The notes under the pieces: model-generated | Told to the model about the DNA's origin: nothing | Database searches by the model: none | Seen by the model: only the letters and a program-made list of their open reading frames with translations | Shown here: positions 7,240 through 55,600 of the stretch, in pieces | How positions within the stretch are numbered: the stretch's first letter is position 1 | How the letters are laid out: every line of letters starts with the position of its first letter | NCBI GenBank assembly: GCA_017893485.1 | Contig: CM030362.1 | Span: 178,684,166 to 178,748,165, forward strand | Direction of reading: 5' to 3' | DNA: 64,000 bases | DNA from: Hemerocallis citrina | Taxonomy: Eukaryota; Streptophyta; Magnoliopsida; Asparagales; Asphodelaceae | Made by a program: the position numbers and the translations under genes

Positions 7240-9395
7240 GCGTCGATCGTGTCGCTGGCGTGAATTTTCGAACGATCAAACTATTGATCTGGCGCTAGTT
7301 GACGTGGCTCGATCTGGACGCTCTGATCATGTGCACGCATTGCGAGGTAAGAGTTTTCCACATTTTGATGTTACGTTGCTCGGACGCTCGAATTCCAGAT
7401 CCGAGCAATGTGGCGCAATCAGAGGCATCAATTCAGATCAAGCGCGAATCATGAGGCGATGTTTTTCGCCATTTTCACTCTCGGTAGTTCGGACTCTCGG
7501 ATTTTAGATCTGAACTATGTGACGTGATCAGAGCCTGTTGATGGAGATCCAGCGTGAATCATGAAGCGATGTTTTTCGCCATTTTCATGCTCGGTAGTTC
7601 GCATTCTCGGATTTTAGATCCGGGCTATGTGGCGTGATCTGAGCCGTTGATGGAGATCCAGCACGAATCATGAGGTGATGTTTTTCGCCATTTTAACGCT
7701 CTGTAGTTCGGATCCTGAGATTTTAGATCCGAGCTACGTGGCGTGATCTGAGCTGTTGATGGAGATCCAGCGCGAATCATGAGGCGATGTTCTTCGCCAT
7801 TTTCACGCTCGGTAGTTCAGATCCTCTGATTTTAGATCCGAGCTATGTGGCGTGATCTGAGCCGTTGATGGAGATCCAGCGCGAATCATGAGGCGATGTT
7901 TTTTGCCATTTTCATGCTCCGGTAGTTCGGATCCTCAGATTTTAGATCCGAGCTGCGTGGCGTGATCTGAGCCGTTGATGGAGATCCAGCGCGAATCATG
8001 AGCGGATGTTTTTGGCCATTTTCACGCTCGGTAGTTCAGATCCTCTGATTTTAGATCCGAGCTACGTGGCGTGATCAGAGTCGTTGATGGAGATCCAGCG
8101 TGAATCATGAGGCGATGTTTTTTGCCATTTTCACGCTTGGTAGTTCGGATCCTCGGATTTTAGATCCGAGCTATGTGGCATGATCTGAGCCGTTGATGGA
8201 GATCCAGTGCGAATCATGGGGTGAAGTTTTTTCGCCATTTTCACGCTTGGTAGTTCGGATCCTCAGATTTTAGATCCGAGCTACGTTGCATGATCTGAGC
8301 TGTTGATGGAGATCCAACGTGAATCATGAGGCGATATTTTTCGCCATTTTCATGCTCGGTAGTTCAGATCCTCGGATTTTAGATCCGAACTACGTGGCAT
8401 GATCTGAGTCGTTGATGGAGATCCAGCGTGAATCGTGAGGCGATGTTTTTCACCATTTTCACGCTCGGTAGTTCGGATCCTCGGATTTTATATCCGAGGT
8501 ACGTGGCATGATCTGAGCAGTTGATGGATATCCAGTGCGAATCATGAGGCAGTGTTTTACGTCATTTCCATGCTCGATAGTTCGGATCCTCGGTATATAG
8601 ATCCGAGCTACGTGGCGGGATCTGAGCCGTTGATGGAGATCCAATGCGAATCATGAGGTGGTGTTTTTCACCATTTTCACGCTCGGTGGTTCGAGTCCTC
8701 GAATTTTAAGATCCGAGCTACGTGGCATGATCTGAGTCGTTGATAGAGATCCAGTGCGAATCATGAGGTGATGTTTTTCGCCATTTTCACGCTCAGTTGT
8801 TCAGGATCCTTGGATTTTAGATCCGAGCTACATGGCGTGATCTGAGCCGTTGATAGAAATCTAGTGCGAATCATGAGGCTAGCCATTACCACGCTCGGTA
8901 GTTCGGATCCTCGGTATGAGCCGCTGATGGAGATCCAGCTCGAATCATGAGGAGATGTTTTTCGCCATTTTCACGCTTGGTTGTTCGGATCCTCGATTTT
9001 AGATCTGAGCTACGTGGCGTGATCTGAGCTGTTGATGGAGATCCAGCGTGAATCATGAGGCGATGTTTTTCGCCATTTTCATGCTCAGGTAGTTCGGATC
9101 TAGGGTATACAGATCTGAGCAACGTGGCATGATATGAGTTGTTGATGGAGATCCATCGTGAATAATGAGGCGATGTTTTTCGCCATTTTCACGCTTAGTA
9201 GTTCAGATTCTCGGTATATAGGTCTGAGCTACGTGGCTTGATCTGAGCCGTTGATGGAGATCCGGTGCGAATCATGAAGCGATGTTTTTGCCATTTTCAC
9301 GCTCGGTAGTTCGGATCCTCTGTATATAGATCCAAGCTACGTGGCGGATCTGAGTCATTGATGGAGATCCGGCATGAATCATGAGGCAGTCTGAC
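7240..9395. repeat. 109-bp tandem array in E, two hairpins per unit (about 20 units)
   Basis: The phrase gttgatggagatcca recurs at 7537, 7646, 7755, 7864 and 7974 and onward, a spacing of 109-110 bp, to about 9370. Each unit contains CTCGGAT-TTTAG-ATCCGAG, a 7-bp stem with 5-base loop, and GGCGATGTTTTTCGCC, a 5-bp stem. Units differ by scattered substitutions and small indels; the last few are shorter. The array lies between the antisense genes and the 3' LTR of a Tat element, a position where tandem repeats are known to arise in this lineage. Small frames on either strand here are by-products. Confidence 0.9.
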
Positions 9396-15070: not shown

Positions 15071-17522
15071 GGCTGTGTAACACCCCGAATTCCAAATAAG
15101 TCTAAATTCGAAGTTTCACAGGATCTTTACACTTCACTTTGTACAATTTTACAAGAAATTTAAAACTTTTATTACAACCAAGTCTTTTACATTAACATGC
15201 AGCGGAAAGTAAGTAAAATACAACAATGATAAATGTACAACTGTAACAACTTTAACATTTAAGTAATCATCAACATCAAATTCATCTTTGTATCTTCTTG
15301 TAAATTTCAAGTCCTGCATATGAAAATGTGGACATGTCAATTGCTTACAACCAACACAATATTATACACGGCCATCCTTGCTATGCCAAAAATATACGAT
15401 TTTTTAATACTTTAACAAACACAAATTTGATCACAAACAAAGCTAAAGAGGGACTATCCTGTTGATGTCGTGTGTGCTTGTGCACGTAACCTTAATGCAG
15501 TTATTTATATTTCATGACACAAATGCACACTTGTTAGAACTTATGCATCCCATTCTACATAAATCCGAGGGCAAGCCCTTAACCGTTCTTCATCTTTTAG
15601 GGTTGAATCCCTCATTATGAGTCAAAGTACTACGGTAACTACGGTAAGTATCTGAGGTGTTCTATGAGTTACGAGCCCATGTCCAGACAGCCTGGAGGGA
15701 AATCCCATGTCATGACAAGACACATCATGTAGACAACTTGTGGACAATTTGCCTTCGTCATGGGACAATGGCACTACGTAGTCACCAAGCACCCCACAAG
15801 CATCGCCATGGTCCTAATAATTTCGGAGATGTATTCACGTCATGACATGATGCATCATTGTAACACCTCGAATTTGTGAAATACCGAAAATATTTGTTTT
15901 TATATATTTCGGACAGCTGAAAACTGTTTTTAGGATATTTTGTTTAAATATTGGTACTGGTATGGATATTTGTGGTAGATTGATATTATTGATATATTGG
16001 AGCTACGAGTTGAAATTTTATGGGAATAGATATTTTTTATTTTATTTTATAATTTTGAAGGATTATTACGAGGTAGTTTTAATGTATTTTGTATTGTTTA
16101 TGATATTAAAGTAGAGATTTGGGACTTATTTGAAATATATTGGGATTTGGGGACTTATATGTAATTTTCCCTTACACTATTATTTATTTATTTATTCTTT
16201 TAATAAACCCCCCCCCCATTCTTCTTCCTCCTCCCTTCTTTTCTTTTTTTTCTTCCGATCGCACGTATACAGCCGAACCGATCGGTCGGCATTCTCCCCC
16301 TCCCAAATCCGATCTGTTTTTCGATTGTTTTCAAATTAATTCGGGGGGATAGCTAGGTGGAGGGTGCTCTGGCTCGTGGCGGAGTCCGTTTTTCGAAAGG
16401 ATTTCGAAAAGGTAAACCCTAGATTTTAATTTTGTATAAAAATTAGTGTGGTAACTTTATTTTGAGTAAGAGTATTATGGTAGGGAGATTAGAAGATGTT
16501 AAGAAGGGTAGAGACGAGAAATTAGCAATTTCTTAGAGATTTTGCAAGTTGCTAAAAATTAGGGATTTGGGTTTGCAAATGAGAATTTTATATATATAAA
16601 TTATCTTCCGCATGGTAGTAGAAATTGTAGTTTAGCCATTAGAATAAATTGGGAATGGTTCTAGTAATTGTTTGGGGAATAAAAATCCCTTAGACATTAG
16701 ATTATTACGTGCATCGCATGTGTATCCCAGACGTCCAATAAAACATCTGTGTAATAGTAAGATAATTAGTATTATTGTTTTCCCGTGACTGGTTTGAATG
16801 ATTTGAGCCTTAATTGCTTTGAAACTTGATAATAGGAAATGTTAACAGCTTCATGTGCGGGATGAAGAAGAGATGCTTTCGAGTCTTCCCGGGCTGTTAG
16901 GTGAGTATGAAGGTATTTATGTATTTGTTATTTTAAGAAAATTTTAGTATAATCTGAATGATTGATATGAATCCCGGAATAAGGTTTATGTGTAAAGGGA
17001 AATTAGTGTTCGGTGTTGGTATGCGATATGACGATTAAATACTCGTCTTGTGTATTGATATAAATTTATAGAGGATGGATTAGTTATATATATGTGGGGA
17101 TGAGTTATATGTATATAAGAATGTCGGTATATGGTGGATTGATGTGATTTTAAATATTTAGGGTGATGGTAATGTATTGTGTATATATATCTATGTGTAT
17201 ATGGTGTTGTGATGTGTTAATCTACTGGGCGTATGCAAACGTGTGGGAATGAGATAATAAATAGTATGGTATATTCACGATGTGTGAGGTAATGATCAAA
17301 TAAATAATACAGTACCATTGTGATGTGCAATATTATGATCTGATGATTTTATATATTAATTACAGTGATATTTTCTTTGTGTGATGCATTGAAAGGGTAA
17401 GTGAGATGGTGATCATTGGTTATGCGAATAAGTTAAATCAAAGAGGAGATGCTATGATGATAAAGGGTGATGTTAATATGAAAAGAAAATGTTAATAGCA
17501 ATAATTTCGGTTGACTTGAGTT

Positions 17523-18222
17523 GATACCCCAGGATGGACCTGGGAGAGTAGATACCTCCGCATAGACCGGAGAGAGATATGATACCTCAGGATAGACCTG
17601 AGAGAGAGATGATACCCCCAGGGTAGGCCTGGGAGAGTAGATACCTCCGCATAGACCGGAGAGAGATATGATACCTCAGGGTAGACTTGAGAGAGAGATG
17701 ATACCCCAGGGTAGGCCTGGGAGAGTAGATACCTCTGCATAGACCGGAGAGAGATATGATACCTCAGGGTAGACCAGAGAGAGAGAGAGGATACCCCAGG
17801 GTAGGCCTGGGAGAGTAGATACCTCCGCATAGACCGGAGAGAGATATGATACCCCAGGGTAGGCCTGGGAGAGTAGATACCTCCGCATAGACCGGAGAGA
17901 GATATGATACCTCAGGGTAGACCTGAGAGAGAGATGATACCCCAGGGTAGGCCTAGAAGAGTAGATACCTCCGCATAGACCGGAGAGAGATATGATACCT
18001 CAGGGTAGACCAGAGAGGGAGAAGATACTCCAGGGTAGGCCTGAGAGAGTAGATACCTCCGTATTGACCGGAGAGAGAGATGATACCTCAAGGTAGACCT
18101 GAGAGAGAGTTGATACCCCAGGATAGACCTGAGAGAGCAGATATCTCCGGATAGACGGGAGATAGAGTTGATACCTCAGGGTAGACCTGAGAGAGAATTG
18201 ATACTCCATGCTAGACCTGGGA
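17523..18222 (+). repeat. Hairpin array in C 5' LTR (28-30 bp units, 88-bp higher-order repeat)
   Basis: The units read GATAC, left arm, a loop like RTAGA, right arm, then AGAG. Three types alternate: CCCAGG/CCTGGG, CTCCG/CGGAG and CTCAGG/CCTGAG. Starts of the CTCCG type are at 17551, 17640, 17728, 17818, 17876 and 17964, mostly 88-90 bp apart, so the triplet is the higher-order unit and one triplet is incomplete. The arms differ between types while complementarity is kept. About 24 hairpins. The minus-strand open frames across the array are by-products of its composition. Confidence 0.93.
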
Positions 18223-18473
18223 TAAAATGAATATGATATGAAATGTGAATGAGAAAGAGAAGAAAGTAATTGGTGTAAGATGAAATGAAGTAGTGAAGTA
18301 AGTGTATGGGTCGAAATGAATAAGTAATTACGAGATGAGATTTAGAAATTACGAAAAGTGTATTAATATGGATTAAATGAAGAAAATGTGTTGTGATAAT
18401 GAATACTGGAAGTAGAAAGAATGCATTATGTATCTTATAAATGAAAGTGAAATACAGGAGGATTTGAGTTGAT

Positions 18474-18765
18474 ACACCTTGGAATTGTGTCGAGGTACTA
18501 CCCGCCCGCTATTTCTGTGGAAATAGTGGGAACTACCTGCCTTGACATAATTGCAGGGTGAGTGACATGATATCGGTGATGAATAATGGAAATGAAGAAT
18601 AAAGTAAGTGAAGATGAATAGTGATTTCAGTGAATTAATAACCAAGCTATTAGCTTGAGATGTGATGTGACATTACCCAAACTATGTTTGGGGCGTGGTG
18701 ATTATTACCCAAGCTATCGGCTTTGGGGTGTGATATGTTATTGCCCAAACTATATTTGGGGATAT
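18474..18765 (+). repeat. Second set of inverted repeats in C LTR
   Basis: At 18474-18553 GGAATTGTGTC pairs imperfectly with GACATAATT at the far end; nested within is CTATTTC-tgtg-GAAATAG. At 18640-18765 follow CAAGCTATTAGCTTG, CCCAAACTATGTTTGGG, CCCAAGC/GCTTTGGG and CCCAAACTATATTTGGG. The same set recurs at 24212-24505 in the 3' LTR and in variant form, partly doubled, in C2 (52993-53075, 53165-53232, 53472-53560, 53655-53795). Confidence 0.85.
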
Positions 18766-20260
18766 GGAGTATTAATTGATGTAAATGAAAGTGAAATCAA
18801 TGATAACTTGAGTTATAAGTGAAGATGAAAGTAAGTTAGTCATCAATTAGCTTGAATAATAGCTAAATGATATAACGGGATGAGAATGAGTTATAAAACA
18901 TATTTTTGATGTGATAAGAATGAGTATTTAATAAGTGATATGTTCATGATGTGATGAAATGTGAGTAAATTGCAATGGGCAATGAAGTGTTATATTTTTG
19001 TCATAAGACATGAATTAATGTGGTATTATGAGGATATATGCATACGTGATGATATGGGTTATAAGAAATAAATGAACGCGGTGTTATGAAATATGAAATT
19101 GAGAAAGAAAGGGTTTATGAATGAAAATGAGTATTAAAGAATATGAGTCGTGAGTTCGTAGATGTAAATGAATGGTAAATGAAGTGCGTAGTTATAAAAG
19201 TATGAAGAAAAGAGATAGGGACCTTATGTGAGTATTTATGAAAATAAAGAAACGATGAGGTGGTGGAAATTATGAAATGATGAGTATTTGTGTTGGAGAA
19301 TTCAAAATGAAAAGTAATAGAATGTGGATTAATGTGTTGCTTTGTGATTGAGTATAAAGTGAATGAGTTGTGTATATATGTATTTATATATATGCAGTCA
19401 TATATTAATATGATGCATTTAGCGAAGGGAATGGAGTTATGGATATATAGATGTAGACGGATGCAGACTTGTCGAGTACTTGATACTAAGGTGCATTCTT
19501 GATGCTTTAATGTCCAGATTCGAGTTGAATCTTCTTACCTTGGTATTTGTAAGTTTAATTTATTTTCTTGATATAGTTTGATTTATTTATTAGATTAGTG
19601 AATTATACTCAAACCAGAAATGGTTAACCCCTTAGTGTTTGGGGGGTTAGGGGAGTCCGAGGACTACCCTAGGCACTACTGTTACAGGTCCTCAGCAGTG
19701 CAGAGGTGAGGGATAGATTGGATGGTGCCAAGCTTTTCTTTTTTTTAAATTTTCTATTTAAGTTATTATGTTAAGTGATAAATTTATGATTTAAATTGTA
19801 TTATGGATGTATAAGTATGTAAATGATGAAGATGAGTATAGTGTGGAGTAGTATGGTATGTTTGTGACCCGTACCTATCTCGTTGTGGAGTACCGGGCTC
19901 TGTGGTAGGTTTTACAAAGATTTTTCTAAATTTTTACCTCGTTTTTCATAGAAATTTATAGTTTTTATTTGATATTTGATAATCCGTAATGAGTTTGGCC
20001 CCTAGAGCATTATATTATATTGCCTGTATTTTTCTGCTCATTTTGGCCTGGGGAGCCCGTGAAATGATTGTATGTGTTGTGAGCTACGGAATTTTGAGCA
20101 GAATTCCGTAAGCTATCTGTGTTTCTGGACAAAATTTACAGGGGAAACTCTGCCGAAATTTTTCTTGAAATATAACTTTCTTAGTTTAAGTTTAAAGTGA
20201 TGTAGAAATTGAAATAATTGAATTTGGTGTCAGAAAAAAAAAATTTGGGGTGTTACAGTT

Positions 20261-20272
20261 TGGTATCAGAGC
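20261..20272 (+). other. Element C primer-binding site
   Basis: TGGTATCAGAGC begins three bases after the LTR end at 20257, a perfect initiator-Met tRNA complement. The position confirms the LTR boundary and plus orientation. Confidence 0.93.
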
Positions 20273-20858
20273 CTAGGTTAACTAGGAATGTTATACCCCT
20301 TTCTAGTGATCTTGACTTGTGAGTATGGGTTTCATCGTGCTAAGTAGAGAAGGTGATGTTTGTGTGAAGTTTGTTTTATGCTTTGATAGCATTTTGCTAA
20401 GTATGGATTTAGCTATTGAGTGAAGTGATCCCTATTATTTTTATCTGACTTTGTGTCAGTGATATCTTTTATAAGTCCATGTATATGATCTGCTTTATGG
20501 CACTTTATTGTCCTTTTTAGAATCCCTAGTGAGAATTGTGTGCTATTGGAGTGTTTTATTATATTGATTGTTGTGTGCCATGGAGGGCTATTCCCTGGAG
20601 ATCCTGCATGTGTTCTATAGACCGGAGGGTGATGCGTGACAAGTGATGTCATTGGAAACTGGGGTGATGAGTTGGTTGTGGAGGCCTTATGCATAGTTGA
20701 GGTATGATGCATGAATGATTCGGGTGAGAAGGCCCGATGAGACTCGGTTTCTAATTGTATGAAATGTCTTAGACGATGTGAGTATGTCTGTTGGGTTCGG
20801 TGGTAAAACCCAAGGGGAAGATTAAGGAGGTGGTTGGTAACATACTGATATAAGAGAG

Positions 20859-20924
20859 GATGGTTCCCTGAGATTGAGTATCGATTATCGGGAATTGAAT
20901 AAGGTGACCATTAAGAATAAGGTG
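20859..20924 (+). pseudogene. Reverse transcriptase remnant in element C
   Basis: A single clean block translates DGSLRLSIDYRELNKVTIKN, the RT region that in Ty3/gypsy reads [16 protein letters not shown]. About 22 residues are recognisable. The preceding and following bases do not align with RT, so the palm domain with its catalytic aspartates is absent. The internal region of C was therefore derived from a once-coding chromovirus by deletion. Confidence 0.85.
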
Positions 20925-21268
20925 ACAGATGTCTGAAGTAGAAGAAGAATATTGGCAATTATGACGTCCCAGAAGTGGACAGTACTAGAATTAGTTAGTC
21001 AATTTGGATTTTTCCTCGACCACAGAGAGTGACATGACCTTGTAGGTAGGCAGTTTATTAGTACAGTTGTCTATTCTACAGCTGATCAGTCGAGCTTGGA
21101 TTTGAAATTTATGCTTATTACTGAGGATGCATGATCTAATTTTGGATTAGATTAATGAATGTCCTACCGATTGGTCAGTAGGGCAGTGAAGGAGGTTCTT
21201 GTTATCGTCGTAGATTTGGTATTTTTGATGTGGATGGCTTATGGTAGGGTGAGATGGAGATTGTTTAG

Positions 21269-21595
21269 TTTATTAAGTATGTTGGTTATCCCGGTGACAC
21301 GAAGAGATATCGAGAGTTTAGAAAGACTTTTAAGTAGCCTGGAACGAAGAAGGATGTCAGTTATTTGGCAAGAATGGATAAGCCTCTTTTGAGGTGTGTA
21401 GTCGACAAAAGAATTATGCAGATTAGCGGTGACCAAGACTTCAAGTTGCTCAGTTGCTGAAAGTTCAGTGGTGCGGTATAGTAATTACTATAATTGGGAG
21501 TTTGGGAGATGGTGAGGAGAAAGTGTCCAGGATTGTTTGGACAGTTTTCTTAACCCCTATAGCTCGAGGACGAGCTACTTTTGAGGTGTGTAGAA
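21269..21595 (+). pseudogene. Integrase zinc-finger remnant and polyprotein tail in element C
   Basis: At about 21278-21372 the translation KYVGYPGDTKRYREFRKTFK, stop, PGTKKDVSYLAR matches the zinc-binding region just ahead of the integrase core (family pattern H-P-G-x-T-K-x-Y-x-x-L through W-P-G-M-K). The His is Tyr and a stop replaces the Trp pair. The core D,D35E is missing. At 21560-21590, AGCTCGAGGACGAGCTACTT is the usual end of chromovirus pol before the polypurine tract; the tract itself is weak here (gaggtgtgtagaa). Confidence 0.75.
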
Positions 21596-24500
21596 TGTAA
21601 CACCTCGAATTTGTGAAATACCGAAAATATCTGTTTTTATATATTTGGAGAGCTGAAAACTGTTTTTGGGATATTTTGTTTGAATATTGGTACTGGTATG
21701 GATATTTGTGGTAGATTGATATTATTGATATATTGGAGCTACGAGTTGAAATTTTATGGGAAGAGATATTGTTTATTTTATTTTATAATTTTGAAGGATT
21801 ATTACGAGGTAGTTTTAATGTATTTTGTATTGTTTATGATATTAAAGTAGAGATTTGGGACTTATTTGAAATATATTGGGATTTGGGGGCATATATGTAA
21901 TATTCCCTTACACTATTATTTATTTATTTATTCTTTTAATACCCCCCCCCCCCCCCATTCTTCTTCCTCCTCCCTTCTTTCCTTTTTTTTCTCCCGATCG
22001 CACGTATACAGCCGAACCCATCGGCTGGCGTTCTCGCCTTCCGAAATCTGATCCGTTTTTCGATTGTTTTCAAATTAATTCAGGGGGATAGCTAAGTGGA
22101 GGGTGCTCTAGCTCGTGGTGGAGTCCGTTTTTCGAAAGGATTTCGAAAAGGTAAACCCTAGATTTTATTTTTGTATTAAAATTAGTGTGGTAACTTTATT
22201 TTGAGTAAGAGTATTATGGTAGGGAGATTAGAAGATGTTAAGAAGGGTAGAGACGAGAAATTAGCAATTTCTTAGAGATTTTGCAAGTTGCTAAAAATTA
22301 GGGATTTGGGTTTGCAAATGAGAATTTTATATATATAAATTATCTTCCGCATGGTAGTAGAAATTGTAGTTTAGCCATTAGAATAAATTGGGAATGGTTC
22401 TAGTAATTGTTTGGGGAATAAAAATCCCTTAGACATTAGATTATTACGTGCATCGCACGTGTATCCCTGACTTCCAATAAAACATCTGTGTAATAGTAAG
22501 ATAATTAGTATTATTGTTTTCCCGTGACTGGTTTGAATGATTTGAGCCTTAATTGCTTTGAAACTTGATAATAGGAAATGTTAACGGCTTCATGTGCGGG
22601 ATGAAGAAGAGATGCTTCGAGTCTTCCCGGGCTGTTAGGTGAGTATGAAGGTATTTATGTATTTGTTATTTTATGAAAATTTTAGTATAATCTGAATGAT
22701 TGATATGAATCCCGGAATAAGGTTTATGTGTAAAGGGAAATTAGTGTTCGGTGTTGGTATGCGATATGACGATTAAATACTCGTCTCGTGTATTGATATA
22801 AATTTATAGAGGATGGATTAGTTATATATATATGGGGATGAGTTATATGTATATAAGAATGTCGGTATATGGTGGATTGATGTGATTTTAAATATTTAGG
22901 GTGATGGTAATGTATTGTGTATATATATCTATGTGTATATGGTGTTGTGATGTGTTAATCTACTGGGCGTATGCAAACGTGTGGGAATGAGATAATAAAT
23001 AGTATGGTATATTCACGATGTGTGAGGTAATGATCAAATAAATAATACAGTACCATTGTGATGTGCAATATTATGATCTGATGATTTTATATATTAATTA
23101 CAGTGATATTTTCTTTGTGTGATGCATTGAAAGGGTAAGTGAGATGGTGATCATTGGTTATGCGAATAAGTTTAAATCAAAGAGGAGATGCTATGATGAT
23201 AAAGGGTGATGTTAATATGAAAAGAAAATGTTAATAGCAATAATTTCGGTTGACTTGAGTTGATACCCCAGGATGGACCTGGGAGAGTAGATACCTCCGC
23301 ATAGACCGGAGAGAGATATGATACCTCAGGGTAGACCTAAGAGAGAGATGATACCCCCAGGGTAGGCCTGGGAGAGTAGATACCTCCGCATAGACCGGAG
23401 AGAGATATGATACCTCAGGGTAGACCTGAGAGAGAGATGATACCCCAGGGTAGGCCTGGGAGAGTAGATACATCCGCATAGACCGGAGAGAGATATGATA
23501 CCTCAGGGTAGACCAGAGAGAGAGAGGATACCCCAGGGTAGGCCTGGGAGAGTAGATACCTCCGCATAGACCGGAGAGAGATATGATACCCCACGGTAGG
23601 CCTGGGAGAGTAGATACCTCCGCATAGACCGGAGAGAGATATGATACCTCAGGGTAGACCTGAGAGAGACATGATACTCCAGGGTAGGCCTGGGAGAGTA
23701 GATACCTCCGCATAGACCGGAGAGAGATATGATACCTCAGGGTAGACCTGAGAGAGAGATGATACCCCAGGGTAGGCCTGGGAGAGTAGATACCTCCGCA
23801 TAGACCAGAGAGAGATATGTTACCTCAGGGTAGACCTGAGAGAGAGTTGATACCCCAGGATGGACCTGGGAGAGCAGATATCTCCGGATAGACGGGAGAT
23901 AGAGTTGATACCTCAGGGTAGACCTGAGGGAGAATTGATACTCCAGGCTAGACATGGGATAAAATGAATATGATATGAAATGTGAATGAGAAAGAGAAGA
24001 AAGTAATTGGTGTAAGATGAAATGAAATAGTGAAGTAAGTGTATGGGTCGAAATGAATAAGTAATTACGAGATGAGATTTAGAAATTACGAAAAGTGTAT
24101 TAATATGGATTAAATGAAGAAATTATGTTGTGATAATGAATACGGGAAGTAGAAAGAATGCATTATGTATCTTATAAATGAAAGTGAAATACAGGAGGAT
24201 TTGAGTTGATACACCTTGGAATTGTGTCGAGGTACTACCCGCCCGCTATTTCTGTGGAAATAGTGGGAACTACCTGCCTTGACATAATTCGCAGGGTGAG
24301 TGACATGATATCGGTGATGAATAATGGAAATGAAGAATAAAGTAAGTGAAGATGAATAGTGATTTAAGTGAATTAATAACCAAGCTATTAGCTTGAGATG
24401 TGATGTGACATTACCCAAACTATGTTTGGGGCGTGGTGATTATTAACCAAGCTATCGGCTTTGGGGTGTGATATGTTATTGCCCAAACTATATTTGGGGA

Positions 24501-25995
24501 TATGGAGTATTAATTGATGTAAATGAAAGTGAAATCAATGATAACTTGAGTTATAAGTGAAGATGAAAGTAAGTTAGTCATCAATTAGCTTGAATAATAG
24601 CTAAATGATATAACGGGATGAGAATGAGTTATAAAACATATTTTTGATGTGATAAGAATGAGTATTTAATAAGTGATATGTTCATGATGTGATGAAATGT
24701 GAGTAAATTGCAATGGGCAATGAAGTGTTATATTTTTATCATAAGACATGAATTAATGTGGTATTATGAGGATATATGCATACGTGATGATATGGGTTAT
24801 AAGAAATAAATGAACGCGGTGTTATGAAATATGAAATTGAGAAAGAAAGGGTTTAAGAATGAAAATGAGTATTAAAGAATATGAGTCGTGAGTTCGTAGA
24901 TGTAAATGAATGGTAAATGAAGTGCGTAGTTATAAAAGTATGAAGAAAAGAGATAGGGACCTTATGTGAGTATTTATGAAAATAAAGAAACGATGAGGTG
25001 GTGGAAATTATGAAATGATGAGTATTTGTGTTGGAGAATTCAAAATGAAAAGTAATAGAATGTGGATTAATGTGTTGCTTTGTGATTGAGTATAAAGTGA
25101 ATGAGTTGTGTATATATGTATTTATATATATGCAGTCATATATTAATATGATGCATTTAGCGAAGGGAATGGAGTTATGGATATATAGATGTAGACGGAT
25201 GCAGACTTGTCGAGTACTTGATACTAAGGTGCATTCTTGATGCTTTAATGTCCAGATTCGAGTTGAATCTTCTTACCTTGGTATTTGTAAGTTTAATTTA
25301 TTTTCTTGATATAGTTTGATTTATTTATTAGATTAGTGAATTATACTCAAACCAGAAATGGCTAACCCCTTAGTGTTTGGGGGGTTAGGGGAGTCCGAGG
25401 ACTACCCTAGGCACTACTGTTACAGGTCCTCAGCAGTGCAGAGGTGAGGGATAGATTGGATGGTGCCAAGCTTTTCTTTTTTTTTAAATTTTCTGTTTAA
25501 GTTATTATGTTAAGTGATAAATTTATGATTTAAATTGTATTATGGATGTATAAGTATGTAAATGATGAAGATGAGTATAGTGTGGAGTAGTATGGTATGT
25601 TTGTGACCCGTACCTATCTCGTTGTGGAGTACCGGGCTCTGTGGTAGGTTTTACAAAGATTTTTCTAAATTTTTACCTCGTTTTTCATAGAAATTTATAG
25701 TTTTTATTTGATATTTGATAATCCGTAATGAGTTTGGCCCCCAGAGCATTATATTATATTGCCTGTATTTTTCTGCTCATTTTGGCCTGGGGAGCCCGTG
25801 AAATGATTGTATGTGTTGTGAGCTACGGAATTTTGAGCAGAATTCCGTAAGCTATCTGTGTTTCTGGACAAAATTTACAGGGGAAACTCTGCCGAAATTT
25901 TTCTTGAAATATTACTTTCTTAGTTTAAGTTTAAAGTGATGTAGAAATTGAAAGTATTGAATTTAGAGTCAGAAAAAAAAATTGGGGGTGTTACA
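21596..25995 (+). repeat. Element C 3' LTR
   Basis: It starts TGTAACACCTCG and ends GGGGGTGTTACA, followed by the duplication ATCAT at 25996-26000. It repeats the 5' LTR with scattered single-base changes and small indels, for example in the C-run (21942-21957), the T-run near 21986 and the end (ttgaatttagagtc in place of ttgaatttggtgtc). Confidence 0.93.
23263..23960 (+). repeat. Hairpin array in C 3' LTR
   Basis: Same organisation as 17523-18222, with the unit order preserved and a handful of base changes, some of which break a stem (for example gatacatccgc). It spans about 698 bp, so the array has not visibly expanded or shrunk since insertion. Confidence 0.92.
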
Positions 25996-26739
25996 ATCAT
26001 GTAGACAGCCTGTGAACACTCTCACACCGTAGATCCGAGTCACTCATACTTGTGCTTTTCTCTTACTTTCATCACATCTTCACTACAGTGTTGTCCTTAA
26101 GTTTTAATTTGTTTTAGAAGAAAATCAACACAACCTAGAGCTAGATTACCCTACCAGACTTAAACCAAACAAAAAATACACTCAGCCCAACTGGCTACTT
26201 CTCAAGAGATGCTCAACCCACACTGGTTAGCTCTCAAATTCATTAATAAATACTGTCGGTCGTTAGGGTCTCGCCTAGCCTCTAGATTCCAACAACTATC
26301 TCTTTCTAGAGATCAACAATATGTTATATTCAATTAAATAATATTTCAATTCCTTATTCACAACCTCTTCCTCAAAGAAAATATTTCTTTATAATCTCAT
26401 AACATGAAATAATTCAATTCAACTTCTTTTATCAATTTTATCACTTATAACATTGTGTGCAATTCAAATAATCTTAATCAAATATTAATAACCATAAAAT
26501 ATTATCGAGAGAAATGTAATTGCCTTCCAAAACTTCACCTCTCTTTAATTATACGAGAGCCAGAACTTTGAATATAAAAAATCACTTCTAATACTCACAA
26601 AATATGTCAAAATATTTTAGAAATAATTTTTATAAAGTCTAAACAATTTTAGAAAAATAATAGAATTTTTCCCAATTTTTATTTCACTTAATAACTCAAA
26701 ATATCAACAAAAAAAATCAAAAAGAAAAAAACAAAGTGG

Positions 26740-36779: not shown

Positions 36780-37490
36780 TCACCTAATAACATTGTGTTA
36801 AGCAGTTTTCAACAGTTGTGGGAGCAATTTCGAATGGTGAGCCACTTCATACTTGCTTGTTCGCAAGTAGCTAAAGTAGCATCGAACCATGTGTTGGACT
36901 CCGAACTTATTTTTTAAAGAGTTTCCAACAGTTGTGGGAGCATATTCGAATGGTGAGCCACTTCATACTTGCTTGTTCGCAATTAGCTAAAGTAGTATCG
37001 AACCAATTGTTGGACTCCGAACTTGTTGTTTAGAGATTTTCCAGCAGTTGTAGGAGCAATTTCGAATAGTGATCCACTTCGTACTTGCTTGTTCGCAAGT
37101 AGCTAAAGTACCATCGAACCAAGTGTTGGACTCTGAACTTGTTGTTTAGTGAGTTTTCAACAGTTGTGGGAGCAATTTAGAATGGTGAGCCACTTCGTAC
37201 TCGCCTGTACGCAAGTAGCTAAAATAGCATCCAACCAAGTGCTGGACTTTGAACTTGTTGTTTAGACAATGTTCAATAGTTGTGAGAGCAATTTCGAATG
37301 GTGAGCCACTTCGTACTCGCTTGCTCGCAAGTTGCTAAAGTAGCAGCAAACCAAGTGTTGGACTCCGAACTTGTTGTTTATAGTGTTTTCAACAGTTGTG
37401 GGAGCAATTTCGAATGGTGAGCCACTTCGTACTCGCTTATTCGCAAGTATCTAAAGTAACATCGAACCAAGTTTCGGACCCCAAACTTGT
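36780..37490. repeat. 116-bp tandem array in element E (6 units)
   Basis: The anchor gagccacttc (or gatccacttc) occurs at 36839, 36955, 37071, 37187, 37303 and 37419, exactly 116 bp apart. Units start with gaacttgttgtttag and include CTTGCTTGTTCGCAAG, a short inverted repeat. The array is unrelated in sequence to the 109-bp array on the other side of the antisense genes. It lies just downstream of integrase on the E strand. Confidence 0.92.
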
Positions 37491-37706
37491 TGTTTAGAGA
37501 GTCTTGCATTTAGAGTGTACGCTTCGAGGCGAGACAAACAGAACATTTAGACAACAGGTTTTCTAAGAAGTAGTCTGCTTTTATTAAAGATGACTAAGTG
37601 GCTGCTTCTGAGTTGCAAGCCATTATTACATTTGAAAAAATCAACTAAATAAGCAAAAATACAAACTTAGAAATGCTCTAGGATTAGAAATTGCTTGGAG
37701 CGGTGT

Positions 37707-47233: not shown

Positions 47234-48821
47234 TGATATGGGTAAAAATTTGGGCTAATCTCCTCCGTTTGATCACCGCATGAATCACGAGATAAATAGC
47301 TCGTGGGCTCTCCATAAGCCCGCCGACTTGCAACTCAAGATTCGTCCCAAATTGCAACTCAAAGACTAATCGTTAATAAAACAATTGACTTTGAGTCTCG
47401 GAGGAATATACCGGAAGCGGAGCAGAAAATGTAGGAATTTTCATTAAATAGAATTGTAGCGCCCCGGATCCCACTACAAGAAATCCGTGATACAACCAGA
47501 ACCGTTTCCTTCAAATGCATCTCAATCCAGTAATAATACGGGAAATTAAAAACTTTTATTGCCACCAGAGTTATTACAATAAACATCTTGTTCTATTACA
47601 AGAGATACATTATACAGTTATACCTTCAGAAGATTTACATCTACATATTACTGCTACTGATACCACTTTGTAACGGTTACCGTTTGTACCCAGCATGGTA
47701 GTCAACAGATCTCTACTGGAAGCTCCGCTGAGTGGTCAAGCTGCTTCCCCGAGATGCGCCACCTAGTTCAAGTCTTCCACTGCGCTACTCTAATTTCGCA
47801 ACTTCTTATTGGTAGGAATGTACATTGGATACTCCACTTGGATGCTCTGCTTGCCTTGAGTCCTTCCGCACTCGCGATTCAACATTCAGCACCTAATTGA
47901 GTGGGCACATCAGTAAGAATACTGACATAATGCTGATAAGAAACAGCGATTTCTAAACTTGTACAATCACAATCAGTCTTGATGAAAACGGAAACGTCCA
48001 TCTTAATTTCCTAGTGTCTGTGAATGCCATTACCTGAGGTCTAATGCAAGTACACAATGTACAAAGAAACATATGCACTAAATCTAATGTCAGCAAGACT
48101 TTGGAAACGCATGCATCCCATACTAAATACTCTCCAAATCAAGTTGTCTTCTTCAAATTCAGGATTTTGAACCCTCGCTATGCATTGCATTCTACTTTTG
48201 CACTCATCCTGTTTTCGACAAATACAACATGGATGGTGAGGCCTACAGTTATTCGGTGTAGTCCCGTCACTTCAAACACATAGTAGCGCCCCAATCCGGG
48301 TCTGGATTATCTCACCAGAAGCCGTGACAAAATACAAGGTACAACCAAATGGCACCGAAGACTCATAAGGAACCCCACATATGGCCCGTTCATCACCAAC
48401 ATAGAACTGTAACACCTCGAATTTGTAAAATACCAAAAATACCCGTTTTTATGTTCCTGGAGTGAGGAGACTATTATTTGGTGTATTTTTATTTTAATTA
48501 TTGATATTGGTGTCTATATTTGTGGTAGATTGGTATTATTGATATATTGGAGCCATGAGTTGAGATTTTATGTGAAGAAATATTGTTTACTTTATTTTAT
48601 AATTTTGGAAGATTGTTATCAGATAATTTAATGTAATTTGTATTGTTAGTATTATTAAAGTATAAAGTTGGGGTTTATTTGAAATATTTTGGAGATTTGG
48701 GGGCTTATTGGTAAATACTCCTTTATATATATATATATTTATATTATTAAAAAAAAAAGAAATTTCTAGAAAATCCCTCCCCTCTTCCTCCTTCCCTTCT
48801 TTCTTTCTTCCCGACCGTAAC

Positions 48822-50549
48822 TGTTGTAGGTCTCAGCTATCTAAATAAACAGATAAACTAGACACAAATTAAAACCTCGCAAGTGTACGAATCGTTTATA
48901 GAAGCGTAGTGAAAAGCAAGGGTCGATCCCACAGAGATTGTAGAAATTAACTCACTAATCAATAAAACAAAAACACAAATCATAAAGTCTTGTTCTAAAA
49001 GTCTATTTGAAAGGAAATGAAAAGATTAAAATCTAGATCAAGTAGAATCACAATTGGAATCACAAATATTTATTAAAGTAGTTGGGCTTGATTTCCACCT
49101 ATAGTCAAGAATGCTAAATTACCTTCTACACTACTCTAATCACTCAAGTTTGTTCCTCTAAGGGCATGGTATCTACTCCTTAAAGTTAAGATTTTCCTAT
49201 GCCAAGAATTAGGCATGGTATCTACTCTAATTCGTTTCTTTCCTGAAGTATTTAGCATGGTATCTACAAAGTTGCACTTGAAGAAAGCATGAGAACAATG
49301 GAAATGAACAAACACTCAAAGCTCTAGAAGTTGGTATCAAATCTAGATCCTTCAAGTTGATTAAACCAAGAACCTAAATGATTCCTGTGTTACAAGTATG
49401 AGCACAAGATATGGGTCATCTCTATACTCATCTAACATAGTCAATTTTATAATAAGCTAACTTGATAATATCAGGTTCTTCAGATCAGTCGACTGTTGCT
49501 AGCTCTCAGTCGACTGATTCTACGAACTTTCTAACAAATGTTGATTCATATTATAATTTTGATCAAGATAACCAGGTTTAATCAATAAGTGATAGAAATA
49601 GTGTTTTAGAAGATTATAACATTACATGACTATGGTTTCAATCTGCCCAACAATGAAATTAGTTGCACATAATAAAACTTTTATTGATTAACAATTCAGA
49701 ATTCATGACTCTAACAATAAAAACAAAAAAAAACTAGAAAGAGAAGAAGTAACACTGGTGATGTTCAGCCGTGAAGTTGACTTGAACTGCTTCTAAGTCG
49801 ACTTGATCTCGTTCTCCAGTGGCACTCGATCTCCTTCTTAGTTTGATTGTACTTGATCTTCTTTCATTGATTCCTTCTCTTCTTTCGATCTGATTCTCGA
49901 TTCCAGAAATCCAGAGATTGTGAGATGTTTTCTAAACTGCGTATTCCAGCCTTTTTATAGTTTCTTTTGCACCCATCCTACAGATCTCAAGTTCCAACAT
50001 TCCTATCTCTTCACGCATCGGATATGGATTGAGTTGATCTTAATACTTGCCAAACCCGGGTTTCTAAGTTGATTTGTTGGGAAGTTGTTATTTGCAGTTA
50101 TCCCATATCTGTTTCCTGGATTCTAGCAGCTCACTTTGATTCGGATTTGGAAGAGGATGAATCTTCAACTATCTTTATCCTTTAGCTCCCTCTGAATGCC
50201 AGTCGACTGGTTTTGGAATCAGTCAACTGTGTCGTGAATTCTGGAGATTCAAATTAGTCAGTCAAGTCGACTGTCTTTTGGGTAAGTCGACTGTACTGCG
50301 CAGCTTCGGAAACTCAACCTCCTCTGTTTGGTCGACTGTCATTGAAGGACCAGTCGACTTGTGTTCTGCAGCTTCCTGTGTATCATCCTCACAGTCTGGA
50401 GTAAATCTTGAATCTGCTTCGTTTAGTTGCTTTTGGGCTGTTTCCTATGGAAAAGAGAAAAGAAGAGTAAATTACCACATATAGAGAATTTAATTGTCTA
50501 ATTGCATTCAGATTATTGCTCCAAAATGTGAATATTATTGGATTTATCA
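48822..50549. mobile_element. LTR-like insertion G (1.73 kb) in C2
   Basis: TGTTGTAGGTCTCAGC to GGATTTATCA, flanked by GTAAC at 48817-48821 and 50550-50554. It interrupts C2 between ttcccgacc and the ccagcaccg sequence. TG/CA ends with a 5-bp duplication suggest an LTR (solo) or short LTR derivative. The block caagtgtacgaatcg with gggtcgatcccacagagatt is common in plant LTR-like repeats. At 49480-50370 it holds many GTCGACT motifs as in the copia element. No coding sequence recognised. Confidence 0.65.
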
Positions 50550-51707
50550 GTAACCAGCACCGAAAAGAAACCCACTTTCGGCATCTCTCTTCCCCGCCTA
50601 AATCCACTTGGTTTCTTCATGATTTTCAAATTAAATTGAGGGGTATACTAATTGAAGGGTGCTCTAGCTCGTGGTGGAGTCAAATCGAAGAAACAACAAC
50701 GGGAAGGTATACCCTATTCTGTTTTATTTGTATAGAATTAAGTGATTTTAATTTTTATTAAATAGAACTGTTATGGTAGGGAGATTAGGAGATATTGGGA
50801 ATAGTAGAGGCAAGAGATTAGCAAATTATTGGAGATTATGCAAGTTTGCTAATAAATTAGGATTTTGGGTTTGTAAAAGATAATTACATATGTGAGAATT
50901 ATCTCTTTTATAATAGTAGAAATTCCTGTTGAGCTATTAGAATAATTTTGGGTGTGATTTTAGTAATTGTTTGAAAATAAAAATATTGCAGGAAATCGAA
51001 TATTACGTGCAATGCACGTGTGCATCCCAGGCGTTCAATAAATTGTTGGTATGATTTGTGGATGAGGTGTATTGAGATAAAGTATATAGGTATAAATTTA
51101 TGGACAATGGATTAGTTATGAATATAGGGATGAGTTATATTTATATGATGATATCGAAATATGGTGAGTATGATTATACTAAATATATGTATATTGTTGT
51201 GACAAAAATCTTAAGCGGTTTGAAGCGATCATTGTTTAATTCAGCCAAATGAAGTTTTAATCTAAATACGAAAAGTTCTTATATGTTAAAAGTTGTTATA
51301 TGGTAAATTGGAGTGTATCTGGGGAATTGATGTGATTTTAAATATTTAGTGTGATGGTGATGTATTGTGTAGATATATATATATGGTGTTGTGATGTGTT
51401 GATCTAGTGGGCGTATGCAAATATGTGATAATGAGATAATAAATAGTATGGTATACTCAAGATGTGTGAGGTAATGATAAAATAAATAATACAGTACAGT
51501 TGTGATGTGCAATAATATGATGTAATGATTTTAGATGTTAACTACAGTGATATTTCTTATATGTGATGCACTGAAAGGGTAAGTGAGATGGTGATCATTG
51601 TTTATGTGTCAGTAAGTTTAAATAAAAGATGAGTTGCTATGATGATAAAAGGAGAAGAAATTATGAAAAGAAAATGTTAATAGCAATAATTTTGGTCGAC
51701 CAGAGTT

Positions 51708-52642
51708 GATACCCCAGGGTAGACCTGGGAGAGCAGATACCTCCGGATAGACCGGAGAGAGAGTAGATACCTCAGGGTAGACCTGAGAAAGAGTTGATAC
51801 CCCAGGGTAGACCTAGGAGAGTAGATACCTCCGGATAGACCAGAGAGAGAGTAGATACCTCAGGGAAGACCTGAGAGAGAGTTGATACCCCAGAGTAGAC
51901 CTGGGAGAGCAGATGCCTCCAGATAGACCGGAGAGAGAGTAGATACCTCAAGGTAGACCTGAGAGAGAGTTGATCCCCCAGGGTAGACTTGGGAAAGCAG
52001 ATACCTCCGGATAGACCGGAGAGAGAGTAGATACCTCAGGGTAGACCTGAGAGAGAGTTGATACCCCAGGGTAGACCTGGGAGAGCAGATACCTCTGGAT
52101 AGACCGGAGAGAAAGTAGATACCTCAGGGTAGACCTGAGAGAGAGTTGATACCCCAGGATAGACCTGGGAGAGCAGATACCTCCGGATAGACCGAAGAGA
52201 GAGTAGATACCTCAGGGTAGACCTGAGAGAGAGTTGATACCCCAGGGTAGACCTGGGAGAGCAGATACCTCTGGATAGACCGGAAGGAGAGTAGATACCC
52301 CAGGGTAGACCTGAGAGAGAGTTGATACCCCAGGGTAGACCTGGAAGAGCAGATACCTTCAGATAGGCCGGAAAGAGAGTAGATACCTCAGGGTACACCT
52401 GAGAGAGAGTTGATACCCCAGGGTAGACCTGGAAGAGCAGATACCTCTGGATAGACCAGAGAGAGTGCAGATACCTTCGGATAGATCGGAGAGAGGGTAG
52501 ATACCTCAGGGTAGACTTGAGAGAGAGTTGATACCCCAGGGTAAACCTGGGAGTGCAGATACCTCCGAGGAGACCGGAGAGAGAGAGAGTTGATACCTCA
52601 GGGTAAACCTGAGAGAGTTGATATCCCAAGATAGACTTGGGA
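51708..52642 (+). repeat. Hairpin array in C2 LTR
   Basis: Same 88-bp triplets as in C: CCCAGG/CCTGGG, CTCCGG/CCGGAG (fully paired here, with one mismatch more in C) and CTCAGG/CCTGAG, with loops such as GTAGA or ATAGA. About 32 units in 935 bp. The last unit has a fourth stem, CCCAAG-ATAGA-CTTGGG (52624-52640), changed on both sides. Another, CTTCGG/TCGGAG, pairs through two G-T wobbles. Confidence 0.93.
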
Positions 52643-55600
52643 CACTGTGGCTCACTAGTCGACTAATTAATAAAATGAATATGATGTGAAATGTGAATGA
52701 GAAAGAGAAGAAAGTACTTGGTGAAAAATGGAATGAGATAGTGAAGTAAGTGTATGGGTGAAAATGAATAAGTAAAAGTGAAAGAAAATGAGTATGTGAT
52801 GATGAGCATGAAAGAATGTGATTTACGAGTATCCAAGCAAAAAGGTTTGGTAAAAGAAGTATGTGATTAAATATGAGAAGTAAAGTAAAATGATAAGTGT
52901 GATATACTATTAGATGAATGGAATTAAAGTAAAAATAAAATGTACTGTGAGAATGGTTGCGAAACGAGAAATATGACATGATATGAGTTGATGCACCTTG
53001 GAATTGTGTCAAGGAACTACTCGCTTGCTATTTCCATGGGAATAGTGGGAACTACCCGCCTTGGCACAATTTCTAAGGCAAGTTGGCAGGTCATCGAGGT
53101 AAATGTTGTATTGTGAGGTGAAAGCGAAAGTAAAGAAAATTGTGAGGTGATCATGAAAATAAAGTAAATTATTACTCAAGCTATCGGCTTTGGGGTGTGG
53201 AGTATATTACCCAAACTATGTTTGGGGTGCGGTGTATTATCTAAAAAGAATCAGAGTTAATGTGAATTGTATTATCAGATGGAAAATGAAAGGTAGAATA
53301 CCTTGTGTTATGAAATGAAAATGAGAAAGTAAAGATATCGTATGATATAAAATGAATATGAGAAAGTGGAGAACGCAAGTGTATTATGAGATGAGAATAA
53401 AGAATAAGATGAGATTGAGGTAGTAAATAAACTGAATTAATAAGGATGAAATGAAGAAATTGTGTGGTGAGTTGATGCACCTTGGAATTGTGTCGGGGAA
53501 CTACCTGCCTGCTTTTTCTATGTAAATGGTGGGAACTACCTGCCTTGGCATAATTCGCAGGGTGAGCTGGTGGGTTGTTAATTTAATATCGGTAATATGT
53601 AATGGAAATGAAGAGTAAAGTAAATTGTAAGATGAAAAGAAAAGTAAAGTAAATTAATAACTGAGCTATTAGCTTGAGATGTGATGAGCTATTACCCAAG
53701 ATCTACTTGGGGCTGCAGTGATTATTACCCAAGCTATTCGGCTTCGAGGTGTGATATATTATTACCCCAAACTATGTTTGGGATGCAGAGTATAAATTGA
53801 TGAGAATGACTATAAAGTTAATTGTAATATGAGAATGAAAGTTGATGTATTACGAAATATTATGATAAGTGTTATAAGAAATGATTGGATGTGGTAATAT
53901 GAGAATGACCGCATATGGACATAATGCCCTGAATGCAAAGGGATGTAAAGATTTACGATAGAACAATTATGTGTGATAAAATACAATAATTTATGATGGA
54001 ATAAATATGAAGTTACGTGAGTATAATAAATATGATAGGAATAAGTATCCGTGTGTTGCAAGATTGATGAGTGTGATGTGATGTGACATGAGAAGAAGAG
54101 AGAAAACGAAAATGAATGAAGATGAGTATGAAAGAATATGAGATATGAATATTGTAACTGAATTGAAATTGGTGCGGTGAAGGTAATTAGAAAAAGATGA
54201 ATATATGTGATATGTGATTAAAAATGAAGAGTAAGCAGAGTTATACGTGAATTAAGTTAGTGTTTTGTATTTGAGTATAAAGTGGAAGAGTGGTATACAT
54301 ATAGTAGTATGATGCAAAATCTATGAGATTAAATATTAAGGATTGTGTGTATAATAATTTATGTGGTTAACTCACCTAAATTGGGATATGGAAAGGAGAA
54401 TAAGAAATAAAGAAAGCGTGTATGTGTGATATAGTATTATGCGAATGTAAACTAAGGATTATGTGAGGTTAGTGTGATGCGGAATGTGTGAAGTTATGGA
54501 TATGTATATAGTTGGATGCATATTTGAAGAGTACGCTGATATAAAGTCGTATTGGTGATGTTTTTATGTTCATATTTCCGATTAAATCTTCTTATCTTAA
54601 TGTTTGTAAGTTCAATTTATTTTCTTTATACAATTTATTTATTTATTAGACTAATAATTTATACTCACACCAGTAATGGCTAGCCCCTTAGTGTTTGGGG
54701 GTTAGGGAGTCCCTGGACTACCTTAGACCCCTGCTGTTACAGGTCCTCAGTAGTACAGAGGTGAGGTGTAGATTTCGTAGAGTGGATTTTTTACTTTTAA
54801 AAAAAAATATATGTATCACTTTAGTTAGGTAAATAGTGAAAGTTATGGTTTAAATTGTATTTTGGATGTATAAATACTTGGATGACGATGATGAGTATAG
54901 TGTGGGGTAGTATGGTATATTCTCGTCCCGTACTCATCTCGTTGTGGTGTACCGGGCTCTGTGGTATGTTTTATAAAGATTTTTCTAAAAATTTTACCTC
55001 GTTTTCAAAGAAATTTATGGTTTTTATTTGATATCTGATATTCTATTATGAGTTTGGCCCCCAGAGCATATATATTGATTGCCTGCATGTTTCTACTCAT
55101 TTTGGCCTGGGGAGCCCGTGATATTATTGCATATGTTGTGAGCTACGAAATTTTGAGCATAATTCTGTAAGCTTTTTGTGTTTCGGGGCAAAAATTTCAG
55201 AGGAAACTCTGTCAAAATTTTATTTGATATATAACTATCTTAGTTTATGTTTAAAGTAATATAGAAATTGAAAGAATTTATTTTGGAGTCAAAAAAAAAA
55301 ATTTGGGGTGTTACAAGAACCTCCAGGTAACCTTCCCGTTCTTACCATGGCACTTCAGGAATTGACAGAGCGAGGTACGCAACTCAGCATGTATCCCTAC
55401 AATAGGAAGAGACAACCCTGGTAATCACCGCCTAGTGCTCGCCCTTAGAATAAATCGGATTATAGGGTATCACCCTTAACACCAACTTGGTCCTTAAGAG
55501 AAAATAAAGAAATACAATCTAGTTACCAAAACATGCTATTCATCCAATCTCGTATAAAGTCTAAGCGATTGAGCCCAAACGAGTCTGTCAACACAAAACC

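Follow-up and report, generated by a model that had tools for sequence, protein, structure and literature searches.

A tandem array of short palindromes occupies a fixed slot in the long terminal repeats (LTRs) of a retrotransposon family of Hemerocallis citrina, where it forms a C-rich island between C-starved flanks. Comparison with described elements suggests that this array, whose three alternating unit types we call P, Q and R, is of the palindrome-array kind known from Sireviruses, found now in another kind of long LTR. What is new here is the fixed C-rich slot, the presence of other palindromes in that slot in some sister LTRs, a nearby 33-pair hairpin, and a short internal region that recurs between the LTRs.

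The window, i.e. the whole stretch of 64,000 nucleotides that was analysed, is repeat-rich, and contains an element, designated C, that comprises two 4.4-kb LTRs (C5 and C3) and a short internal region, as well as a solo LTR of the same family (C2). The features to which we refer, with the basis on which each was delimited, are the following:

15859..20257, plus strand: 5' LTR of C (C5), TGTAACACC...GGTGTTACA (direct reading, sequence comparison)
17523..18222, plus strand: array of 24 units in C5 (unit calling)
18223..18470, plus strand: linker between array and long hairpin, 2.8% C (composition)
18475..18560, plus strand: long hairpin in C5, 33 pairs of which 5 are G-U (predicted fold)
18636..18770, plus strand: second palindrome cluster, with CAAGCT/AGCTTG, CCCAAAC/GTTTGGG and CCCAAA/TTTGGG (hairpin scan)
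18771..19430, plus strand: linker, 4.4% C, one CHG site in 660 bp (composition)
20258..21595, plus strand: internal region of C, 1,338 bases (PBS-like start, broken pol remnants)
21596..25996, plus strand: 3' LTR of C (C3) (LTR-LTR alignment)
23262..23960, plus strand: array of 24 units in C3 (unit calling)
48408..55315, plus strand: solo LTR C2 (sequence comparison, direct reading)
51708..52640, plus strand: array of 32 units in C2 (unit calling)
52994..53080, plus strand: long hairpin, first copy in C2 (predicted fold)
53478..53564, plus strand: long hairpin, second copy in C2 (predicted fold)
53644..53790, plus strand: second palindrome cluster in C2 (hairpin scan)

The LTRs of C differ from each other at 78 of 4393 aligned bases; they have TG...CA ends and are flanked by ATCAT (15854-15858 and 25997-26001), a target duplication of 5 bp. 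Such ends and duplications are features of the (Tekay-like) chromovirus type, and 5-bp duplications are also described for beet chromoviruses (PMC3605345). C2 is flanked by the target duplication AGAAC (48403-48407 and 55316-55320) and is split near 48816-50560 by some 1.7 kb of inserted DNA. Directly 3' of the 5' LTR of C lies the PBS-like sequence TTTGGTATCAGAGCC, which appears to resemble the primer site for initiator tRNA-Met. The internal region contains broken remnants of pol, spotted by eye, in which the reverse transcriptase and integrase motifs look gypsy-like; it holds no intact coding region, and a Pfam search with five pieces of it returned no match. The host element of the array probably belongs to a Ty3/gypsy-type family.

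In a genome search with the internal region, in which 40 places were scored out of 3,500 first-look candidates, 32 of the 40, C included, covered almost its whole length (from base 1-4 to base 1338) with 81-100% identity. Furthermore, among the matches listed in a search with the long hairpin, at least four same-strand pairs, C included, lie 5.2-6.1 kb apart, as if they were the LTR pairs of short elements. As the short internal region recurs, non-coding, in dispersed copies and such match pairs exist, the family seems to spread without coding. It would accordingly be non-autonomous and carry its signals in the LTRs, the LTRs examined being those of C out of C and the other 31 internal matches. 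Long LTRs, no usable coding and a structure that recurs in many copies are likewise typical of large retrotransposon derivatives (LARDs) and other non-autonomous long-LTR elements. Classic LARDs have a longer conserved internal domain; here the LTR has 4.4 kb and the internal region only 1.34 kb.

Each unit of the array opens with GATAC and closes with AGAG and a short tail; between these stand two 6-bp arms around a 5-bp spacer. The arms are CCCAGG/CCTGGG in P, CTCCGG/CCGGAG in Q and CTCAGG/CCTGAG in R, and the types alternate as P-Q-R with lengths of 28, 30 and 30 bp, i.e. 88 bp per triplet; the order is broken by the absence of an R between units 11 and 12 in C and by one additional Q in C2. 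The description given in the earlier note on this DNA was therefore accurate as far as the layout is concerned: it had reported about 24 hairpins inside an LTR of C, with these three pairs of arms in a fixed 88-bp triplet order, the same array in both LTRs of C and a longer one in C2 (24, 24 and 32 units by our calling), and the arms CCCAAG/CTTGGG in C2, whose array has them once. Perfect hairpins with 6-bp arms number 8 in C5, 11 in C3 and 15 in C2, against a mean of 0.9 in dinucleotide shuffles of each. The centre-to-centre spacing of the units, 28-30 bp, is out of helical phase. On the plus strand the predicted fold of the array is better than that of 20 shuffles (z -3.9 in C and -11.8 in C2; -2.1 for the minus strand of C), and with pairing considered over 700 bases the probability of the local hairpin exceeds 0.5 in 11 of 24 units in C5, 17 of 24 in C3 and 20 of 32 in C2. 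Rfam gave no match at the gathering score, and none was obtained in scans of viral_contigs and genome_contigs with the array pattern, of viral_contigs with the long-hairpin pattern, or of plasmids with the LTR. That the array codes for protein was considered and rejected. A minus-strand open reading frame over the C2 array, used in a protein search, yielded 828 candidates, none with E <= 10, and we take this frame to be a chance by-product of the repeat.

The earlier note had also maintained that whenever a stem base changes its partner is changed too, and had read this as the mark of selection for base pairing or for a DNA cruciform. The observation stands for differences between types, as P, Q and R differ on both sides at stem pairs 2 and 4 (the chance of this by random placement being about 2e-4 for the 26-base core and 1.6e-3 for the arms only), for the last C2 unit (CCCAAG/CTTGGG, pair 5) and for C2 unit 26 (CTCTGG/CCAGAG, pair 4). 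It does not stand for Q in C, whose majority form CTCCGC/CCGGAG contains a C-C mismatch, nor for individual units compared with their own type, in which the changed pairs are one-sided in 20 of 22 cases in C2 and in 21 of 21 in C (changes common to both LTRs of C being counted once), and in which the changes are mostly transitions. Over 78 of the 80 units in the window (two with an extra C were left out), 30 double-changed cells were counted against 11.3, a signal that stems from the three types themselves; within types, doubles come to 2 against 1.11 in C2 (P 0.30) and to none in C5 and C3.

The question was extended to the 3.78-Gb genome, in which one narrow unit pattern has 7,818 exact matches and its backward control has none. 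The sample comprised 61 loci, the window's own C5, C3 and C2 among them: L008 came from the pattern listing (L001-L007 overlap it and were dropped) and the other 60 from two long-hairpin similarity searches with 40 places scored in each, of 2,521 and of 2,434 candidates, so that the presence of the long hairpin in these 60 is not an independent result. Units were detected by a tolerant rule that misses some (it found 23 of 24 in C5), and several of the tests were picked after the data had been seen. Forty-five loci carry 8-38 units each and the remaining 16 carry 0-2; of the 1,019 units detected, 6 could not be typed, being too distant from all three types, and 487 of the 1,013 typed units are perfect. 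Complementary doubles among the typed units number 15, against 12.0 (P 0.22) and 14.5 (P 0.49) in two shufflings of the 3' arms, the first confined to each type and the second to each type and locus; neither comparison shows an excess. Watson-Crick cells number 5437, against 5413.4 within types (P 0.002) and 5433.7 within types and loci (P 0.31); since the small excess vanishes in the within-locus shuffle, it is explained by locus. Among single-sided cells, G-U (214) and A-C (182) are about equally common. Selection on individual units by compensatory change is rejected accordingly, as doubles within types are no more frequent than by chance, and the double-sided changes lose, at the level of the unit, the meaning that the earlier note had given them.

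That note had conceded that its idea would suffer if arrays were absent from most family members, or if the types had arisen once and were only copied. Units are in fact present in thousands across the genome; as to the types, copying from a single origin appears to be what the sample holds. The types are common to 45 of the 61 loci, with nearly identical arms (the locus majority is CCCAGG/CCTGGG for P in 41 of 44 loci and CTCAGG/CCTGAG for R in 42 of 43), and for that reason they look old and of single origin, copied afterwards. The majority form of Q has CTCCGC, with its closing pair lost one-sidedly, in 20 of 42 loci. When the majority units of 42-44 loci per type are compared, the sites that vary between loci are 5 of 15 in the loops, 3 of 36 in the arms (all in closing pairs, two in Q and one in P), 1 of 15 in the leads and 1 of 12 in the tails, which suggests that everything except the loop may be constrained, or else that the copies are recent. 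With only a few old unit types, changes that merely appear compensatory can thus pass for covariation between tandem units.

Outside its islands the plus strand of C from about 16741 to 19430 has only 2.8-7.2% C, and C2 is alike at 51041-54480; these stretches have a GC skew of +0.55 to +0.80 and few CHG sites. The islands in C are the array (20% C), the long hairpin (23%) and the second palindrome cluster (15%), the last of which has CCCAAG-ATCTA-CTTGGG in C2 in place of CCCAAA-CTATG-TTTGGG in C. CHG sites number 6.3 and 7.1 per 100 bp in the arrays of C5 and C2, against 0.15-1.5 in the C-starved stretches. The same contrast was found in the 50 loci of the sample with both slot anchors (11 of the 61 have one anchor missing): the slot has 17.3-23.1% C (mean 19.9%), the sequence downstream of it 1.1-8.6% (mean 3.2%), and that upstream, in 47 loci, 2.8-11.1% (mean 5.1%), the slot being richer than its downstream flank in 50 of 50. 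In bins of 100 bases, C and C2 are 83-93% identical from 17141 through the array to 18340 and 74-85% over most hairpin islands, against 44-63% at bin 18341 and at 18741-19440. Between C5 and C3, the arrays differ at 26 of 700 bases and the C-poor stretches at 10 of 1690, a roughly sixfold difference in rate. Ongoing C-to-T pressure was considered as the cause of the C-starvation and rejected, as these differences in the C-poor stretches are few and only one of the 10 is C/T.

The slot is not always filled by P-Q-R units. Units are present in 43 of the 50 anchored loci; in the other seven the slot is 401-481 bases long and of different sequence. In a hairpin comparison that took nine of the 43 anchored loci with units and six of the seven without, five of these six slots contained 3-8 hairpins against shuffle means of 0.8-1.1, only L063 and L067 exceeding the highest of 40 shuffles, and the sixth (L065) contained 1 against 1.1. 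The motifs in these sister slots include CCCAGC/GCTGGG, CCCAAAC/GTTTGGG, CCCAAGT/ACTTGGG and CCCTAGT/ACTAGGG. One of the slots was followed through the genome (40 places scored of 2,271 candidates, 37 fetched), and in the alignment of 38 copies, listed directly, CCCTAGT/ACTAGGG occurs in 12, three of them with altered arms, while most others have CCCAGC/GCTGGG. Double-changed cells number 32 in this alignment against a shuffle mean of 19.7, a value that none of 1000 shuffles reached, and 28 of the 32 come from the one swapped hairpin; paired cells number 1764 against 1734.7 in shuffles, and G-U and A-C cells 56 and 66. It may be, then, that pairing rather than exact sequence is kept at the level of whole modules. 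Of the selection for pairing proposed in the earlier note, the part concerning units has to be given up, and a part concerning whole modules possibly survives in the other palindromes of the sister slots and in the adjoining long hairpin. A sister LTR also contains, at L060:288-1244, a 127-bp tandem array with subrepeats of 22-24 bp (ATGGTGGGAGATTATCACC).

The long hairpin downstream of the array is preceded by the lead GAGTTGATAC, which is common to some array units. Its predicted fold in C has a z of -6.9 on the plus strand and -2.4 on the minus strand, and the two copies in C2 have z of -3.8 and -2.5. Of 75 places found in the genome 70 are distinct, and 69 copies were aligned after omission of the partial L044. 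The pair structure, taken from the predicted fold of one member and therefore favouring G-U, is matched by standard pairs in 90.9% of cells, against 38-45% when it is slid along the alignment, with 389 G-U cells against 99 A-C cells. Pairs polymorphic for G-U outnumber those polymorphic for A-C by 11 to 7 (P 0.24), and double-sided changes show no excess over shuffles (5 pairs against 4.9; 6 cells against 6.8). To judge from this modelled structure, the long hairpin leans to a possible RNA role. In seven copies (L008, L045, L046, L049, L051, L053 and L061) that have GAAGTGTGTC or GAAGTATGTC together with ...CACAACTT or ...CATAACTT, a T-A pair of other copies reads as G-A, or by eye as G-C with a bulge.

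The earlier note knew of no described LTR element with such an array, which does not hold. Sireviruses (Ty1/copia) come closest: their LTRs are reported to carry palindromic repeated motifs in 13 elements, with 8-32 copies per element and 3-14 boxes per LTR (PMC2829016). According to the same source, each element has one palindrome, located upstream of a TATA-like promoter, and all but one of the 13 have a CGG-CCG core (PMC2829016); an excess of small RNAs at the palindrome clusters of maize Sireviruses is attributed to Bousios 2016 in PMC10760457. As in Sireviruses, many copies of a short dyad-symmetric motif are clustered in the LTR (8-38 units in 45 of 61 loci), and the dyad symmetry, which in Sireviruses occurs with or without intervening bases, is here that of 6-bp arms around a 5-bp spacer; there are CpG islands there and a C-rich island here, and cis-regulation has been proposed and secondary structure predicted. 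In contrast to Sireviruses, the CGG-CCG core is found only in the Q form CTCCGG/CCGGAG, P and R having AGG-CCT; each LTR of the 45 array-bearing loci has 8-38 units, in which three palindromes take turns to make up a higher-order repeat of 88 bp; and the surrounding strand is C-starved, the long hairpin lies close by, and the host element is non-autonomous and probably gypsy-like. Ty1/copia elements of the Tnt1 type have tandem activator boxes in U3, in two or three copies. They share with the present family the tandem cis-elements in the LTR, which here number dozens of copies, and to our knowledge alternating palindromes are not known in their activator boxes. Retand elements, which are also plant Ty3/gypsy elements with family-specific tandem arrays, are described as carrying these repeats between pol and the 3' LTR, i.e. 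in the internal region and not in the LTR, and the word "hairpin" is absent from the main text of that paper (PMC11963269). A literature search of titles and abstract openings, mostly without subscription papers, found no report of this P-Q-R array.

Tentatively, we prefer to regard the array as a cluster of palindromic protein-binding sites in the cis-region of non-autonomous long LTRs. It is a higher-order minisatellite of three palindromes that fills a fixed place in the LTR and changes its copy number by whole units, and its clustered palindromes, with half-sites about one helical turn apart, would be bound by a dimeric protein of the host or of the element; a regulatory role may be assumed by analogy with the Sirevirus motifs. 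For an element without proteins of its own the palindromes could provide a strong cis-signal, and a transcript through the LTR could also form hairpins at the array. The conserved arms, the half-site spacing, the Sirevirus precedent and the lack of a G-U preference argue for protein binding, the ratio of G-U to A-C cells in the array (214 to 182) suiting DNA dyads better than RNA stems. The hairpin excess in all three arrays, the C-rich slot, the other palindromes in most unit-less slots, the recurrent internal region and the CGG-CCG core of Q also speak for this reading. However, the arms are not specially protected: lead (1/15) and tail (1/12) vary as little, which lowers the weight of protein binding and raises that of an array without function, and the conservation may simply mean recent origin. 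A transcription start near 16230, if it exists, would place the array downstream of it, unlike the Sirevirus boxes; the units do not follow one another in phase with the helix; the closing pair can be broken in Q; and a degenerate site does not require both half-sites to change jointly, yet P, Q and R show just that. The next alternative is a structured RNA domain, in which array, long hairpin and second cluster would fold as hairpins, set on C-poor linkers of weak structure, in a plus-strand LTR transcript and serve packaging, dimerisation or another RNA step of a family mobilised in trans. We consider this alternative rather unlikely, even though the plus strand gives the long hairpin a much better fold than the minus strand (z -6.9 and -2.4), with 90.9% standard pairs, many more G-U than A-C cells (389 against 99) and a GAGTTGATAC lead in common with some units, the plus-strand arrays beat their shuffles, the slot of some sister LTRs retains hairpins of another kind, and the C-starved linkers are capable of few G-C pairs. 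Against it, the units show neither covariation nor a G-U preference (214/182 in the array, 56/66 in the sister slot), the long hairpin has no more double changes than shuffles (5 against 4.9) and 11 G-U against 7 A-C polymorphic pairs (P 0.24) in a structure that comes from one member's fold and favours G-U, and fewer than all units form the local hairpin with a probability above 0.5 (11/24, 17/24 and 20/32 in C5, C3 and C2). A variant, which we find doubtful, is that the slot is modular and can be loaded with one set of palindromes or another: GATAC P-Q-R arrays in the majority of the LTRs sampled, and elsewhere series of CCCAGC/GCTGGG, of CCCTAGT/ACTAGGG, of CCCAAAC/GTTTGGG and of CCTCG/CGAGG. 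Palindromy itself, whatever the sequence, would then be what is retained as a cue for trans-mobilisation and would be recognised, along with the downstream long hairpin, in the form of RNA hairpins.

The array could also be a functionless selfish minisatellite that grew from palindromic seeds through slippage and unequal exchange. Its types would then be accidents of one old trimer, and template switching at hairpins can transfer a change from one arm to the other without selection. We judge this quite improbable. It would account for types common to 45 of 61 loci in arrays of 8-38 units, for unit changes that are almost all one-sided and mostly transitions, for the loss of the Q closing pair and its subsequent spread, and for the high divergence between the arrays of C5 and C3 (26/700 against 10/1690). 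It accounts poorly for a slot whose place and C-richness persist where its sequence is unrelated, mostly with palindromes, for arm sites that are less variable than loop sites between loci, and for an array that, like most islands, can be aligned between C and C2 where many linkers are beyond alignment. Least of all do we expect the array to exist as a substrate of host silencing, with hairpin transcripts feeding small RNAs and symmetric CHG sites in the palindromes attracting methylation: the density of CHG sites in the arrays of C5 and C2 (6.3 and 7.1 per 100 bp, against 0.15-1.5 in C-starved stretches) and the small-RNA excess at maize Sirevirus palindrome clusters (PMC10760457, citing Bousios 2016) are consistent with it, but silencing would then follow from the array and give the element no cause to retain it. 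With candidate copies in the thousands and a fixed palindrome slot whose content is naturally swapped, the family offers ready variants for tests of which LTR signals are needed. How non-autonomous plant retrotransposons without proteins of their own are recognised by their helpers is a poorly understood field.

Several other features of these LTRs and of the window were noted. The stretch 16150-16260 is AT-rich, with AATAAA at about 16202, and is followed by a C/T-rich patch; a similar run from AT-rich to C/T-rich sequence is present in C2. It is a candidate promoter and poly(A) signal, which would imply a very short U3, and the part that resembles a TATA box and Y patch by eye, near 16200-16250, would place the array downstream. 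After a T/C-rich stretch, what looks like a 5' splice site common to both LTRs is found at 16410-16419 in C (AG|GTAAACC) and at 50705-50714 in C2 (AG|GTATACC), and the LTR leader might be spliced, with the array within an intron. The palindrome ACGTGC-N3-GCACGT, whose core is presumably G-box-like, lies at 16707-16721 in C and at 51005-51019 in C2; C2 and C3 have it without change, and C5 departs from it by one base. Elsewhere in the window, a 109-bp tandem array at 7435-9387 has three units with palindromes of 6-8-bp arms and 5-nt loops (e.g. CTCGGAT-TTTAG-ATCCGAG), and a 116-bp tandem array at 36804-37502 has six copies, two of them with a TACTTGC/GCAAGTA palindrome.
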